Positions 2,502 to 50,922 of a stretch of DNA of 64,000 nt are shown one piece after another (position 1 is the stretch's first letter; every line of letters begins with the position of its first letter). A program made the position numbers and the translations under genes. The notes beneath the pieces were generated by a model that worked only from the letters and a program-made list of their open reading frames with translations, did not search any database and was not told the DNA's origin. Source of the stretch: Alphaproteobacteria bacterium (GTDB lineage: Bacteria > Pseudomonadota > Alphaproteobacteria > Reyranellales > Reyranellaceae); assembly GCA_016870115.1 (NCBI GenBank), contig VGCH01000008.1, positions 1-64,000 of the forward strand, written 5' to 3'.

Positions 2502-3626
2502 CTATGCCGCGTTCTTGCGTTCGAGCCTGGTCACGAGTTTGTCCTTCCACGCCATCGGCCCGCCCAGCGACAGCGAGAGCAGCCGCGCGCGGCGATAGTG
2601 GAACTGGGTGTCGGCCTGCCAGGTGAAGCCGATGCCGCCGTGGGTCTGGATGTTTTCCTTGGCGGCGTAGTCATAGGCGTCGGTCGCGGCAACCCGCGCC
2701 GCCGCGGCCGCGAGCGGCAGGTCGGCACCGCCCTCGGTCAGCATCATCGCGCCGTAGTAGGCGTTGGAGCGCGCGATCTCGAGCTTCACGTAGCAGTCGG
2801 CGAGCTTGTGCTTGATCGCCTGGTACGATGCGATCGCCCGGCCGAAGGCTTGGCGCTGCAATGCGTAGTCGCGAGCCATCCACATCGCGGCCTCGGCGCC
2901 GCCCACCTGGGCAAACGCCATGTAGACGGCCGCCGCGTCCTGCAGGCGCTCGAGCACGCGCCAGCCCTCGCCCTCGGCGCCCAGCAGCTCGGCTGTCGCG
3001 TCGGCGAAGGTGAGTTCGGCGTGCTTGCGCGTCGGATCGACCGTCTCCAACCGGCGACGCGTCACGCCCTTCTGCGCGAGATCGACCAGCGCCAGCGAGA
3101 GCGCGCGCTCGCCTTGCCCGCCGGTATTCACCAGCACAATGGCAAAGGTCGCGAGCTCGCCGTCGGTCACCGGCAGCTTCACGCCATTCAGCCGGCCATT
3201 GCCGAAGCGCGTCGCAACACCCCTCGGCTTCAGCGGCTGAGGTCCTTCCGCAAGCGCCACGGTGCCGACGGCCTTGCCTTGGGCGAGCAGCGGGAGCCAC
3301 TTCGCCTGCTGTGCGGGCGAGCCCGCCATTTTCAGCGCCTCGGTGGCGAGAATCACCGATGTCTCAAACGGGACCGGCGCGCAGGAGCGGCCGATCTCCT
3401 CCGCGACCACACACAGCTCCAGCGGTCCCAGCCCCAGACCGCCATGGGCTTCGGGGATCGTAGTGCCAGGAATGCCGAGGTCGATCAGGCCCTGCCAGAC
3501 CTCGGCCGCATGGGTTTCGGGGCCCTCCAACACGCGCCGCACGGTCGTCATGGGGCACTTGTCGTTGAGGAACTTGCGCACCTGATCCTTCAGGAGCTTT
3601 TGGTCGTCGGAGAAATCGAAGTTCAT
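2502..3626 (-). CDS. acyl-CoA dehydrogenase, probable partner subunit
   Basis: A 374-residue acyl-CoA dehydrogenase-family protein, first gene of the pair with the one ending at 1262. It shows the N-terminal MNFDFSDDQKLL helix, the IPEAHGGLGLG loop, ALAEGPQ in the middle domain, RQAFGRAIASYQAIKH and the C-terminal QTHGGIGFTWQ. The C-terminal EGT-type catalytic loop is not visible: the sequence runs RARLLSLSLGGP instead. No glutamate is obvious at the alternative helix position either. This resembles the non-catalytic partner of paired bacterial acyl-CoA dehydrogenases, as described for actinobacterial FadE pairs. The heteromer is inference. The start at 3626 is about 90 bp from the divergent gene at 3714. 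Confidence 0.9.
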   Translation of the reverse strand: MNFDFSDDQKLLKDQVRKFLNDKCPMTTVRRVLEGPETHAAEVWQGLIDLGIPGTTIPEAHGGLGLGPLELCVVAEEIGRSCAPVPFETSVILATEALKMAGSPAQQAKWLPLLAQGKAVGTVALAEGPQPLKPRGVATRFGNGRLNGVKLPVTDGELATFAIVLVNTGGQGERALSLALVDLAQKGVTRRRLETVDPTRKHAELTFADATAELLGAEGEGWRVLERLQDAAAVYMAFAQVGGAEAAMWMARDYALQRQAFGRAIASYQAIKHKLADCYVKLEIARSNAYYGAMMLTEGGADLPLAAAAARVAATDAYDYAAKENIQTHGGIGFTWQADTQFHYRRARLLSLSLGGPMAWKDKLVTRLERKNAA

Positions 3627-43214: not shown

Positions 43215-46200
43215 TTAGGCGGCGGCGAGCCGGTCGGCTTCCATCAAATTCACCGACACCAGCTGCGAGACGCCCTGTTCGGCCATGGTGACGCCGTAGA
43301 GGCGGTCCATCTTGGCCATCGTCACCCGATGGTGCGTGATGATGAGGAAACGCGTGTCGGTACGCTGCGCGATGTCCTGCACCAGACCGCAGAAGCGTTC
43401 GACGTTGAGGTCGTCCAGCGGCGCGTCCACCTCGTCCAGCACGCAGATCGGCGCGGGATTGGTGATGAACACCGCGAACAGGAGCGACAGCGCCGTCAGC
43501 GCCTGCTCGCCGCCCGAGAGCAGCGACATCACCTGCAGCTTCTTGCCCGGCGGCATCGCCACGATTTCGAGGCCGGCCTCCAGCGGGTCCTCGGACTCGG
43601 TGAGGCGCAGTTCCGCGCGACCCCCGCCGAACAGCTTGGTGAAAAGCTGCTGGAAGTGCCCGTTCACGACCTCGAACGCGGCGAGGAAGCGCTCGCGACC
43701 CTCGCGGTTCAGGCTCTGGATGCCGTGCCGCAGCCGACCGATGGCCGCGACCAGATCGTCGCGCTCGCTGGTCATGGCCGTGATCTGGGTCTCGAGCTCG
43801 GTGGCCTCTTCCTCGGCGCGAAGGTTCACCGCGCCCATCGTCTCGCGCTCATGCACCAGCCGCTCCAGCCGATGCTCGGCTTTCTCCATCTCGGGCAGCT
43901 CGACGAGCGACTCGACCTCTGCCGCCGCCAGCACGGCCTCGGGCTCGCAGCGCAACCGCTCGGCGATGCGCTCTATCACCCCGCCGCGGTCACGGCCGGC
44001 CTGCTCCACCTGCCCTTCGCGACGCACCCGGCTCTCGCGGGCCCGGCCGAGCTCCGTCTCCGCGCCCCGGAGCACACGATCCGCCTCGGAGAGCCGCGTC
44101 TCACCCGACGCCAGCCGATCCGCCGCGCCCTGTCGCACGGTCTCGGCCTCGGCGATCTTCTCGCCCAGCGCGGTACGCTTGGTCTCGATCTCGGCCGGCA
44201 GGCGCTCAAGTTCGGCCAGCGCCTTGGCGATCTCGTCGCGACGCGCGCCCAACACCTCGAGCTGGCGCGCCGCGTCGTCGGCGCGCCCGGCCCAGCCCGC
44301 GCGATCCTGCGCCACCCGACCGAGTTGCTCGACCCTGAACTCGATATCCCGCGCCTGACGGTCGCGGCGGCTCTCGGCCTCCAGCAGGGCCGCCCGCAGG
44401 TCGCCGATCCGCACGCGCAACGCGCCTGCCGCCACGCGATCGGCCTGGGTGTCGGCGATCGCCGAACGCTGCGCCTCGCGGAAGGTGCGGCGGATCTCGA
44501 CATCGCCGATTTCGCCGGTGACCTCGCCCAGCGTCGCGGCGAGCGCGGTTGCGCGAGCCGCGAGCTGATCGGTCGCGCGTGCGACCTCGGCATGACGATC
44601 GCGGGCTTCGCCGGCGGACCGTTCGGCGGCACCGATCGCGATTTGGGCGCGCTGCTCGGCGGCGCGTGTCGCCTCGCCCGCCTCCGCGGCGCTGCGACGC
44701 GATTGGTCGATCACCGACTGTTCATGGCTGCGGGCGCGGGCCACACACAGCGCTTCGGCCTGACGCGCGGCATCGGCGGCCAGTGCCGCGGCATCGGCGC
44801 GCTGGGCGAGCGCGCCGTGTTCAGCAGCGACGCCCTCGATCTCGGCGCGCACGCGCGCCAGACGATTGCGTTGGCTCAAGCAATTCGCGGCGGCGGTCGG
44901 CGCACCGGCGCGCATGGTGTAGCCGTCCCAGCGCCACACCGCGCCGTCGCGCGAAACCAGCTGCTGGCCCGGCGCCAGCGTGGGCTGCAAGCGCTCGCCG
45001 GTCGCGTGGTCCTCGACGACGCCGATGAAGGCGAGCCGGCGCGCGAGTTCCTGCGGCGCGCGCACGAACTCCGACAGGGCGCGGGCGCCACCCGGCAGCG
45101 AGGGCGCCGCCATGAAAGACGGCAGCGCGACCCAATGGACCGGCGCACCGCCGTCGGACGAGGCCTCAAGATCGTCGCCGAAGGCGGCGCCCAGCGCCGT
45201 CTCCCAGCCCGCCTCGACCGTGAGTGCGTCGATAAGCGGCGGCCACAGCGACTCCGCGTCGGACTTCAGCGCGGCGGCGATGCCGGCTTCCTCGGCGCGC
45301 AACTTCGTCAGGTTGGCTTCAACCGTGCGGGCTGCGGCGCGCGCGGTCTCGTGCGCGGCCTCGGCGGCACCACGCTCGGCGGCGCGCGCGCGTTCCATCG
45401 ACACGCGGTCGGTCTCGGCCTGCCGCGCCCGGGCACGGGCGGCGTCGGACTCGTACCGCTCGGCATCGCGCGCGGCCTCGATGGCGGCGGTGCCCTCAGC
45501 GCGGGCACGCTCCCAGTCGGCGCGGGTCGCGGCGAGAGCCGCGTCCATGTCGGCCATCGCCGGCAGCGCCGAAAGCTCGGCGGCGATGCGGGCGTGCTGG
45601 CCCTGCACTTCGTCGCGACGAGCCGCGAGTCGGGCCAGCCGATCGCGCAGGTCGACAATCGCGCGATCGGCGGCGAGGCGCAGCGCCTCGTCATCGGCGA
45701 TCTGGCGCGTCAGCCGGTCATGCTCCGTCTCCGCCTCATCGACGGCCGTCAGCGCCGCATCGCGCGCGGCTTGCGCGGCCGCGAGGCGTTCGGTCTCGCC
45801 GGTGCCCGCTTCGTCAAGGCGGGCCCGCTCGGCATCGAGACCCTGGATCGCCGCCGTCGCGTCCTCATGCCGGCCCCGCTCGCGGGACATGTCGCCATCG
45901 GTTTCGCCCAGCCGCTGCGTTGCGTCCCGCTGCTGCTCGGCGATGCGCTCGGCTTCGGACGTCAGCGCATCGTGGGCGACGCGCAGACGCTGCAGACCGG
46001 CAGCGGCCGCGGCTTCCTCGTGGCGCAGCGCCGGCAGCGCGGTCGCCGCCTCGGCCTGTGCGGTAGTGGCGAGACCCACCAGCCGCGTGAGGTCGGCGAC
46101 CTCGGCCTCGGCGGTCGCGAGCTCGCGCGTCGCCTCGGCCAGCGCCCGGTCGGCGGCATCGAGCCTGAGCGCCAGAACGGCCGCCTCGGCACGACGGATA

Positions 46201-46874
46201 TGGTCGGTGAGGTTGCGATAGCGGTTGGCCTGGCGGGCCTGACGCTTCAGGCCCTTGTGCTGTTCATCCAGGGCGACCAGCACGTCCTGCACCCGGGCGA
46301 GATTCTGCTCGGCGGCGCGCAGACGCAGCTCGGCCTCGTGGCGCCGGGCAAAGAGGCCCGTGATGCCGGCCGCCTCGTCGATCACCCCACGCCGGTCGGC
46401 CGGCTTGGCGTTGATCAGGGCGCCGACCCGACCCTGGCTCACCATGGCGGTCGAGCGCGACCCGGTGGCGGCGTCGGCGAACAGGGTTTGCACGTCGCGG
46501 GCGCGGATATCCCGGCCGTTGACCGAATAGGCGGAACCGTGACCGCGCTCGATGCGACGCACCACGTCGAGCTGGTCGGCATCGTTCACCGCGGCAGGCG
46601 CATTGCGGCCGCGATTGTCCAGCGACAGCGCCACTTCGGCGATGTTGCGGGCGGGACGCAGGCCCGTGCCGGCGAAGATCACGTCCTCCATCTCGCTGCC
46701 GCGCATCTGCTTGGCGGAGGTCTCGCCCATGACCCACTTCAGAGCCTCGACGAGGTTGGACTTGCCGCAGCCGTTGGGCCCGACGACGCCGGTGAGACCG
46801 GGCTCGATGGCGAGCTCCGTCGGATCGACGAAGGACTTGAAACCGGAGAGACGAAGCTTGTCGAACTGAACCAT
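43215..46874 (-). CDS. smc: chromosome segregation protein SMC
   Basis: A 1219-residue condensin ATPase. The N-terminal head has GPNGCGKSNLVEALKWVMGE (Walker A). Long Ala/Glu/Arg-rich coiled coils cover about 160-500 and 660-1000. A hinge lies near 510-640, where DGGAPVHWVALPSF and DGYTMRAGAP are seen. The C-terminal head has SLLSGGEQALTALSLLFAVF (signature) and PICVLDEVDAPLDD (Walker B). The ATG at 46874 starts MVQFDKLRLSGFKSF, the usual first residues; a TTG three codons upstream is less likely. It is downstream of DsbA-like genes, as in many alphaproteobacteria. Confidence 0.96.
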   Translation of the reverse strand: MVQFDKLRLSGFKSFVDPTELAIEPGLTGVVGPNGCGKSNLVEALKWVMGETSAKQMRGSEMEDVIFAGTGLRPARNIAEVALSLDNRGRNAPAAVNDADQLDVVRRIERGHGSAYSVNGRDIRARDVQTLFADAATGSRSTAMVSQGRVGALINAKPADRRGVIDEAAGITGLFARRHEAELRLRAAEQNLARVQDVLVALDEQHKGLKRQARQANRYRNLTDHIRRAEAAVLALRLDAADRALAEATRELATAEAEVADLTRLVGLATTAQAEAATALPALRHEEAAAAAGLQRLRVAHDALTSEAERIAEQQRDATQRLGETDGDMSRERGRHEDATAAIQGLDAERARLDEAGTGETERLAAAQAARDAALTAVDEAETEHDRLTRQIADDEALRLAADRAIVDLRDRLARLAARRDEVQGQHARIAAELSALPAMADMDAALAATRADWERARAEGTAAIEAARDAERYESDAARARARQAETDRVSMERARAAERGAAEAAHETARAAARTVEANLTKLRAEEAGIAAALKSDAESLWPPLIDALTVEAGWETALGAAFGDDLEASSDGGAPVHWVALPSFMAAPSLPGGARALSEFVRAPQELARRLAFIGVVEDHATGERLQPTLAPGQQLVSRDGAVWRWDGYTMRAGAPTAAANCLSQRNRLARVRAEIEGVAAEHGALAQRADAAALAADAARQAEALCVARARSHEQSVIDQSRRSAAEAGEATRAAEQRAQIAIGAAERSAGEARDRHAEVARATDQLAARATALAATLGEVTGEIGDVEIRRTFREAQRSAIADTQADRVAAGALRVRIGDLRAALLEAESRRDRQARDIEFRVEQLGRVAQDRAGWAGRADDAARQLEVLGARRDEIAKALAELERLPAEIETKRTALGEKIAEAETVRQGAADRLASGETRLSEADRVLRGAETELGRARESRVRREGQVEQAGRDRGGVIERIAERLRCEPEAVLAAAEVESLVELPEMEKAEHRLERLVHERETMGAVNLRAEEEATELETQITAMTSERDDLVAAIGRLRHGIQSLNREGRERFLAAFEVVNGHFQQLFTKLFGGGRAELRLTESEDPLEAGLEIVAMPPGKKLQVMSLLSGGEQALTALSLLFAVFITNPAPICVLDEVDAPLDDLNVERFCGLVQDIAQRTDTRFLIITHHRVTMAKMDRLYGVTMAEQGVSQLVSVNLMEADRLAAA

Positions 46875-46910
46875 GGACTCCAACGCGTGCTGGCCGGCAA
46901 ACCGGACCTG

Positions 46911-47570
46911 TTACTTGACGTGTTTGGCGATGGCCGTGTCGATCGCCTCGATCGATCGCGGACCGCTGTAGCGCTCGCCGTTGATGAAGATCGTGGGCGT
47001 CGCGCTGACGCCCAACGCCTCGCCCGCGCGGCCCTCGGCCACGACCGCGGTCTGGATGGCGTCGTTGGCGAGGCACGCCTTGATCTCGGCGTCGCCGATG
47101 CCGGCGACACGCAGCGACTTCGACAACTCACCGATCGCGTCTTGCGCCACCGCCCACTGCGCCTGGCCCCGGAACATGATGTCGAGCACCGCGAAATAAC
47201 GCTCCTTGCCCGAGCACTCCGCGATCTGCGCCGCCTGCAGCGCCACCCGGTCGAGCGGGAAGTCGCGGTAGACGAGCTTCACCTTGCCGGTGTCGATCCA
47301 CTTCTTCTTGATGTCGGGCAGCACCTGATTGTGGAACGACGCGCAGTGGCTGCAGGTGAGCGAGGCGTATTCCACGATGGTCACCGCCGCCTTGGGGTCG
47401 CCCAGGACCTGGTCGGTGGCCTGAACCGAAAGCGAGGCGGCCGCCCCCCCGGGGGCGCTGGCGACCGGCGCGCCGGCCGGCGGTGCGGCCGGGCGGGTGC
47501 CGGAATAGACCGCGACCGCGATCGCGGCCACCGCCACGACGCCGCCCGCGACTATCAACATGTTCCGCAT
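46911..47570 (-). CDS. DsbA family thioredoxin, membrane-anchored
   Basis: A 219-residue periplasmic thiol oxidoreductase. A single N-terminal hydrophobic anchor (MLIVAGGVVAVAAIAVAVY) and a Pro/Ala linker precede the thioredoxin fold. The redox site is CSHC (73-76) in VEYASLTCSHC. ATPTIFINGERYSG holds the cis-Pro loop near 190. The layout resembles BdbD-type DsbA proteins. The ATG at 47570 has GGGAGGGG immediately upstream, which decides the start over an earlier GTG. A paralogous DsbA domain lies immediately upstream on the same strand. The role is disulfide formation in the envelope. Confidence 0.92.
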   Translation of the reverse strand: MRNMLIVAGGVVAVAAIAVAVYSGTRPAAPPAGAPVASAPGGAAASLSVQATDQVLGDPKAAVTIVEYASLTCSHCASFHNQVLPDIKKKWIDTGKVKLVYRDFPLDRVALQAAQIAECSGKERYFAVLDIMFRGQAQWAVAQDAIGELSKSLRVAGIGDAEIKACLANDAIQTAVVAEGRAGEALGVSATPTIFINGERYSGPRSIEAIDTAIAKHVK

Positions 47571-47638
47571 GCCACCCCTCCCTGACCACCACATCTTGGG
47601 AAATTCGGCGGCTCGGAGTCAAACCCAGAGTCTTTGGG

Positions 47639-48697
47639 TCAGCGCCTTGCTTTCTGGAGCGCGGCGTCCATGCCCTCGACGTCGCCTGGGTTGCCGATAT
47701 TGACCCCGTTCACAAAAAACGTGGGCGTTCCCGTGACTCCGGCCGCTTCGCCCGACTGGACGTCGGACACGACCTTATCCAGCGCCGCGACATTGGCGCC
47801 GCACGCCGCGACCTGCGCCGGGGTTATCCCCAGTCGGCCGAGCAGCCCGCCCAGCGTGGCCACCGGATCGCCGGTCCGCACCCAGCCGTCCTGGCTGCCG
47901 AGCGCGATATCGAGCGCGGCAAAGAACTGGTCGCCCCCGCCGCACTCTAGGAGCTGTGCGGCGCGAGTCGCGACCTGGTCGAACGGGAAGTGCCGGAACA
48001 CCAGGCGCGCGCGCCCGGAATCGATCCAGCGGCGCTTCACCGCCGGCATCACATCGGTATGAACGCGAGCGCAACCCGCGCAGGTGAGCGAGGCATACTC
48101 GATCAGCACGATGGGCGCATCGGCCCGCCCCAGGATGCGATCGCCCGCGCGCGGCCCGGCGAGCGTCGCCCGTGCCTGCGCCCGGGCGTCGTCGAACGCC
48201 GAGACGCCTGCCGCGGCGAGTGCTGCCAACATAAGGCCGCGCCGGGTCGTGGCGATGCGCGCGCCGAGGCGCGCGAGGGCCGCGCGCAGATCGGGATCGG
48301 CGATAGCCGCAGTGCGTTCGCGGTAGCTCGCGAGGGTGGCGGCGTCGGGATCGGCCGGCGCACGGCGCGGCGCGGGGCGATGGATCGGGCCCTGCACCAG
48401 CTTGATGTCCTCGATCGCGCGATGGCCGAAATAGCTGTTCACCCGCTCGACCAGTTGCGCGCGGCCATGCTGCAGCTCGACGGCGGCGGCGCCCGCCACC
48501 CGAAGCCGCATCGTGGCGCCGGCGCGACCGCGCGCGGGCATCAGCGCCTCGGGCTCGCTCACACGCGCGAGCGCGGGCCCCGCGATTTCGGGCCAGTCGG
48601 CCTTGAGCCGCGCCACCGACGCCTTGCGACCGCGCGCCAGCCCCGAGGCCAGTCGCTGGGCCAGCCCGCCGACGGCGCGAAATCCGTTTTCCCGCAT
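47639..48697 (-). CDS. DciA/DUF721 domain fused to a DsbA-like thioredoxin domain
   Basis: One uninterrupted 352-codon frame joins two domains. Residues 1-147 look like DciA/DUF721 (LKADWPEIAGPALARVSEP, AVELQHGRAQLVERVNSYFG, DIKLVQG), the helicase-loader-related family. Residues 151-175 read TRRGLMLAALAAAG and end in ARAQA, a Tat-like signal. Residues 185-352 are a DsbA domain with CAGC (206-209) and TGTPTFFVNG. In related genomes these are normally two adjacent genes. Between them here there is no stop and no ATG, GTG or TTG before the RR motif; the first ATG lies inside the signal. The start at 48697 diverges from mutY. Confidence 0.85.
   Translation of the reverse strand: MRENGFRAVGGLAQRLASGLARGRKASVARLKADWPEIAGPALARVSEPEALMPARGRAGATMRLRVAGAAAVELQHGRAQLVERVNSYFGHRAIEDIKLVQGPIHRPAPRRAPADPDAATLASYRERTAAIADPDLRAALARLGARIATTRRGLMLAALAAAGVSAFDDARAQARATLAGPRAGDRILGRADAPIVLIEYASLTCAGCARVHTDVMPAVKRRWIDSGRARLVFRHFPFDQVATRAAQLLECGGGDQFFAALDIALGSQDGWVRTGDPVATLGGLLGRLGITPAQVAACGANVAALDKVVSDVQSGEAAGVTGTPTFFVNGVNIGNPGDVEGMDAALQKARR

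Positions 48698-48743: not shown

Positions 48744-50922
<2,179 letters not shown>

Follow-up and report, generated by a model that had tools for sequence, protein, structure and literature searches.

The window analysed here is the whole stretch of 64,000 nucleotides from an alphaproteobacterium of the Reyranellaceae, and one of its open reading frames joins the domain of the DNA-replication helicase loader DciA (DUF721) to a thioredoxin domain of the DsbA-like disulfide oxidoreductase type through an internal Tat-like signal (Table 1). The frame lies on the minus strand, begins with an ATG at 48697, ends with the stop codon at 47641-47639 and encodes 352 amino acids. The 352-codon frame of the initial annotation is real, and the description was off on the strand. 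Its domain assignment holds, as Pfam matches DciA at residues 10-100 and Thioredoxin_4 at residues 185-348 (E 1.6e-28), plus DSBA. The N-terminus MRENGFR is kept in nearly all relatives, which supports the chosen start. The Tat-like signal that had been proposed between the domains is likewise borne out, with TRRGLML at residues 151-157 and, past a short hydrophobic stretch, ARAQ at residues 171-174, the RR and the A-Q being invariant. A structure model of the fusion resolves the DsbA half well and the DciA core poorly, and the C-terminal helix of DciA is present in it.

Table 1. Features of the fused dciA-dsbA locus and its neighbours (positions in the window)
Feature	Position	Strand	Basis
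dciA-dsbA fused CDS	47639..48697	-	352 aa + stop; uninterrupted in 60 genomes
DciA core (PF05258, DUF721), residues 10-100	48398..48670	-	Pfam E 3.9e-12; dN/dS 0.14
DciA C-terminal helix, residues 135-149, with leucines 137, 141 and 144	48251..48295	-	L-x3-L-x2-L in 42/42; helix in structure model
Internal Tat-type signal, residues 152-173: RR 152-153, short moderately hydrophobic core, AxA-type site at 173	48179..48244	-	Invariant residues; hydrophobicity; dN/dS 0.23
Predicted signal peptidase cleavage point A173/Q174 (ARA/Q)	48178..48179	-	Invariant A-Q; cleavage predicted
DsbA/Thioredoxin_4 domain, residues 185-348	47654..48145	-	Pfam; structure model
CAGC active site, residues 206-209	48071..48082	-	Invariant cysteines at 206 and 209
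Separate DsbA paralogue downstream, with hydrophobic N-terminal anchor	46911..47594	-	Domain, tree, hydrophobicity
mutY, divergent neighbour, conserved context	48744..49799	+	
smc, downstream neighbour, conserved context	43215..46883	-	

The two halves of the protein

The DciA domain scores 46.6 bits (curated cut-off 24), and it lies above the cut-off in all 28 of the fused relatives scored. Wherever DciA was matched in a genome of the order there is exactly one copy, hence the fusion is the sole DciA of the fused lineage. The arrangement mutY< fused> dsbA> smc> is found in 40 of the 42 loci examined, and in the other two, one neighbour could not be located within the stretch examined. The DciA gene of Caulobacter similarly lies between mutY and trx-smc (PMC5109545).

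The DciA of Caulobacter also shares with the fused one the DUF721 domain, a C-terminal leucine helix and the single copy (PMC9825169, PMC12547741). Its leucines L163, L167 and L170 are DnaB-binding residues required in vivo (PMC9825169). The triad L137, L141 and L144, present in 42/42 fused sequences, has the same spacing, the match being one of spacing and not of alignment to the Caulobacter protein. The fused DciA carries the DnaB-binding type of leucine helix, and binding to DnaB is predicted on this basis. The third leucine is followed by the RR after 7–8 residues in 41/42 sequences and after 12 in one, which is about where the Caulobacter protein (179 residues) ends, so the signal begins at the natural end of DciA. 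The last residues of Caulobacter DciA are functionally important (PMC9825169); its C-terminus is free, whereas the fused DciA runs straight into the signal and DsbA.

The fused DsbA retains the Thioredoxin_4/DSBA fold, the CxxC motif and the cis-Pro. The closest solved sequences are 3f4r, 3f4s and 3f4t (best E 8.8e-36), entries titled ‘putative uncharacterized protein’ that we take to be Wolbachia alpha-DsbA1. These alphaproteobacterial DsbA proteins have the same fold, CxxC and cis-Pro, but they are stand-alone and exported, while here the domain forms the C-terminal half of a fusion. The active site is variable between its cysteines: it reads CAGC here, CPHC in 33/42 fused sequences and CWSC in L003, the nearest relative in the tree.

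Distribution, history and selection

The uninterrupted DciA–signal–DsbA frame was found in 60 of the 75 family genomes searched, namely 59 of the 65 genomes of genus g3, whose frames are 46-56% identical to that of the window, plus the genome of the window itself (genus g1). Three of these 60 matches are partial, with the junction still covered. The idea that the fusion is new in its own genome is contradicted by this distribution, since a frame carried by 60 genomes of two genera is ancestral. Among the six g3 assemblies with no fused-frame match, smc was found in five, and each match ends inside smc at the end of a contig, which indicates that the fusion locus is unassembled in these five; the sixth (G072) has no smc match either.

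Elsewhere in the family, the order and the sampled class, dciA and dsbA are adjacent but separate, as the initial annotation had stated for related alphaproteobacteria. This is the case, for example, in the other family genera g2, g4 and g5 and in the single genome of the sister family. The comparison of the junction with relatives, which had been recommended as a check, shows an uninterrupted frame in the 60 genomes and separate genes in the split relatives. No further uninterrupted full-length fusion was seen among the matches listed from samples of the class (385 genomes) and of the phylum (398 genomes), which were searched with strict cut-offs at which a distant fusion could be missed. Six candidates for independent fusions, picked by shared open-frame lengths (G044, G059, G051, G049, G006 and G009), proved to be neighbouring genes, in frame or close by, that a stop codon separates.

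In a tree of 125 DsbA domains the 42 fused copies form one clade (100/99), hence of a single origin. The separate copies downstream, 41 in all, cluster together (86/95), and it is this group, not the fused copy, that joins the DsbA of split relatives (84/94); the window's own paralogue accordingly groups with the single DsbA that lies between dciA and smc in those relatives. In the simplest reading of the tree, dsbA would have been duplicated beside dciA, one copy joining dciA and the other staying separate, with the root and the order of events unsettled. The fusion step itself is small, because in L042 (G059, of the distant family f24) dciA and dsbA share a frame and are parted by just one stop codon, immediately ahead of the ATG of dsbA (about 2536-2541, minus strand). 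Two other f24 genomes (G764 and G706) gave the same type of match with one stop. Further DsbA-like genes were also seen elsewhere. In two distant genomes (L044 of G049 and L046 of G041) dciA is followed by two of them, unfused, in a tandem that looks independent, and in genus g5 the split-gene relative G010 has two more DsbA copies distant from its dciA locus (L086 and L087).

Purifying selection acts on the fused frame at the junction. The dN/dS, obtained from 42 fused sequences over 197 moderately distant pairs that are not independent of one another, is 0.14 in the DciA core, 0.38 in the DciA tail (residues 101-130), 0.17 in the C-terminal helix with the junction, 0.23 in the signal, 0.54 in the 11-residue linker and 0.20 in the thioredoxin domain. 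The 2,289 junction codons contain no stop in the fused frame, against 66 and 12 stops in the shifted frames. Moreover, R152, R153, A173 and Q174 are invariant in the 42 sequences while being encoded by 5, 5, 4 and 2 synonymous codons, respectively, so that these residues are themselves selected. The fusion is real, old and selected.

The internal signal and its possible products

The signal combines an RR, a moderately hydrophobic core and an AxA-type site, as Tat signals do. The spacing from RR to AQ is 19-22 residues across the 42 fused sequences. With a mean KD15 of 1.67, the core falls well short of the hydrophobicity of the anchor in the downstream DsbA (2.78). Charged residues precede the predicted cleavage site, in the c-region, which is a feature of cleavable Tat signals (PMC7317946). 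The residue at -3 of that site is A, L, V, S or T in 39/42 sequences and P in three, and the F of RRxFLK occurs in just 12/42, being often V, L or A. Tat signals usually have free N-termini (PMC5449189), whereas this one begins at residue 152 behind a soluble domain; it is for this reason labelled Tat-like and internal. The genome encodes TatC, signal peptidase I and DsbB. RR-type signals also begin the dciA-adjacent DsbAs of several other alphaproteobacteria, which suggests that the signal is probably older than the fusion.

The topological conflict between the two halves, raised in the initial annotation, is supported, and the reading that we favour, with somewhat better than even confidence, is that of a polyprotein: the sole DciA, followed without a linker by a Tat-type internal signal and a DsbA that is exported and released by signal peptidase. 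The DciA part would fold and act in the cytoplasm, and the internal RR signal would take the folded DsbA part via TatABC into the periplasm. Signal peptidase I would then cut after the invariant AxA-type site to give a soluble, free DsbA. Given the invariant site and the weak helix, cleavage after A173 is preferred, and it would leave DciA with about 20 extra residues of signal at its DnaB-binding end, i.e., with about 29 residues past L144, signal included, beside the DnaB-binding helix. This stub may hold DciA at the inner membrane at least temporarily, or it may be trimmed. The short signal core, the proline at -3 in three relatives and the variable F of RRxFLK weigh against the polyprotein, as do the free N-termini usual for Tat signals, the absence of a natural Tat signal after a soluble domain from the papers searched, the functional importance of the last residues of Caulobacter DciA and the poor model of the DciA core. 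It is conceivable, though we hold it only tentatively, that the loader stays on the inner membrane via its stub, with no more than about 8 residues between the signal and the DnaB-binding helix; helicase loading would then be membrane-associated and the supply of loader one-to-one with Tat export.

The main rival is that the chain is not cut at all, the signal being a permanent single membrane helix with DciA inside, DsbA outside and the loader tethered, perhaps linking periplasmic redox to replication. The unbroken frame and the conserved geometry would suit such a protein, and Rieske proteins do have uncleaved Tat signals (PMC7317946). This reading is nevertheless unlikely, as the hydrophobic stretch is short and weak, the c-region is charged, an invariant A-Q stands where signal peptidase would be expected to cut, and the paralogue shows by comparison what a proper anchor looks like.

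A lower probability still is given to translation starting inside the junction or the signal, so that DsbA is made also or mainly on its own and the fused product is minor. The initial annotation was right that no in-frame ATG, GTG or TTG occurs from L137 to the RR and that an ATG (codon 156) lies within the signal, but it left the in-frame TTG157 unlisted. Its suggestion of an internal start has this ATG156 in the window's own genome in its favour, as well as a GTG or ATG 2-4 codons ahead of the RR in some genomes (9 GTG and 4 ATG of 42), but conserved support across the relatives is absent. The eight codons before the RR hold no ATG, GTG or TTG in 26/42 genomes, and there is no start codon between -12 and +6 in 11/42. 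A Shine-Dalgarno match is found for 2% of internal candidates, against 4% at random and 68% of the true starts of the paralogue; the dciA start likewise has no strong Shine-Dalgarno, so that its absence at the junction is not decisive. Synonymous divergence is not reduced at the junction (pS 0.47 vs 0.35 in the core), a start at ATG156 would drop the conserved RR, and an internal start would leave DciA still needing an end of its own. In the 42 genomes there is thus no conserved internal start or ribosome-binding site at the junction, nor is there a conserved shifted-frame stop by which a frameshift could release DciA alone. As neither route has conserved support, one chain with an internal Tat-type signal remains.

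It is very improbable that the fusion remains cytoplasmic in its entirety, with the thioredoxin domain serving DciA or the redox control of replication. Topology would be solved without processing and the downstream paralogue could take the periplasmic role, but the RR and A-Q, invariant despite codon turnover, would be needless in a protein that is not exported. A lost stop, a pseudogene or a sequencing or assembly error in the window's own genome, which the initial annotation had entertained and for which the single change that would fuse the two genes of L042 could be adduced, is ruled out with near certainty by the frame common to 60 independent assemblies and by the purifying selection across the junction.

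Precedents and significance

By analogy, the closest precedents are FbcH of Bradyrhizobium and the Rieske proteins of actinobacteria. FbcH of Bradyrhizobium japonicum is a cytochrome b-c1 polyprotein in which one gene gives two proteins through the cutting of an internal signal, as reportedly described by Thony-Meyer, James and Hennecke in 1991 (PNAS 88:5001). The likeness lies in the two proteins per frame with an internal signal sequence between them. The two FbcH products are parts of a single membrane complex and travel by Sec behind upstream membrane helices, whereas the present fusion pairs a soluble cytoplasmic replication protein with a periplasmic enzyme via a Tat-like signal. The Rieske protein Sco2149 of Streptomyces has a natural internal twin-arginine signal of low hydrophobicity (PMC5449189, PMC7317946). 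There, membrane helices inserted by Sec come first and the signal ends up as the final transmembrane helix, while the one described here follows a soluble domain and no membrane helix. The literature searched contained no natural Tat signal placed after a soluble domain, nor any description of a DciA-DsbA fusion, the 2022 J Bacteriol survey of DciA architectures and UniProt being outside the scope of that search. Both domains and the trick of an internal signal are known; what sets this case apart is a combination that crosses the membrane and contains the only DciA of the cell.

Annotation of the product as ‘thioredoxin domain protein’ or ‘DUF721 protein’ conceals half of it. A single frame encodes two proteins whose sites of action lie on either side of the membrane, a situation that probably requires either cutting or membrane spanning. 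The lineage offers natural tests of two questions: can Tat take a signal that stands after a folded soluble domain, and does helicase loading put up with, or make use of, attachment to the membrane? Here a replication protein essential to Caulobacter is kept genus-wide, in its sole copy, as half of a protein with an export signal.
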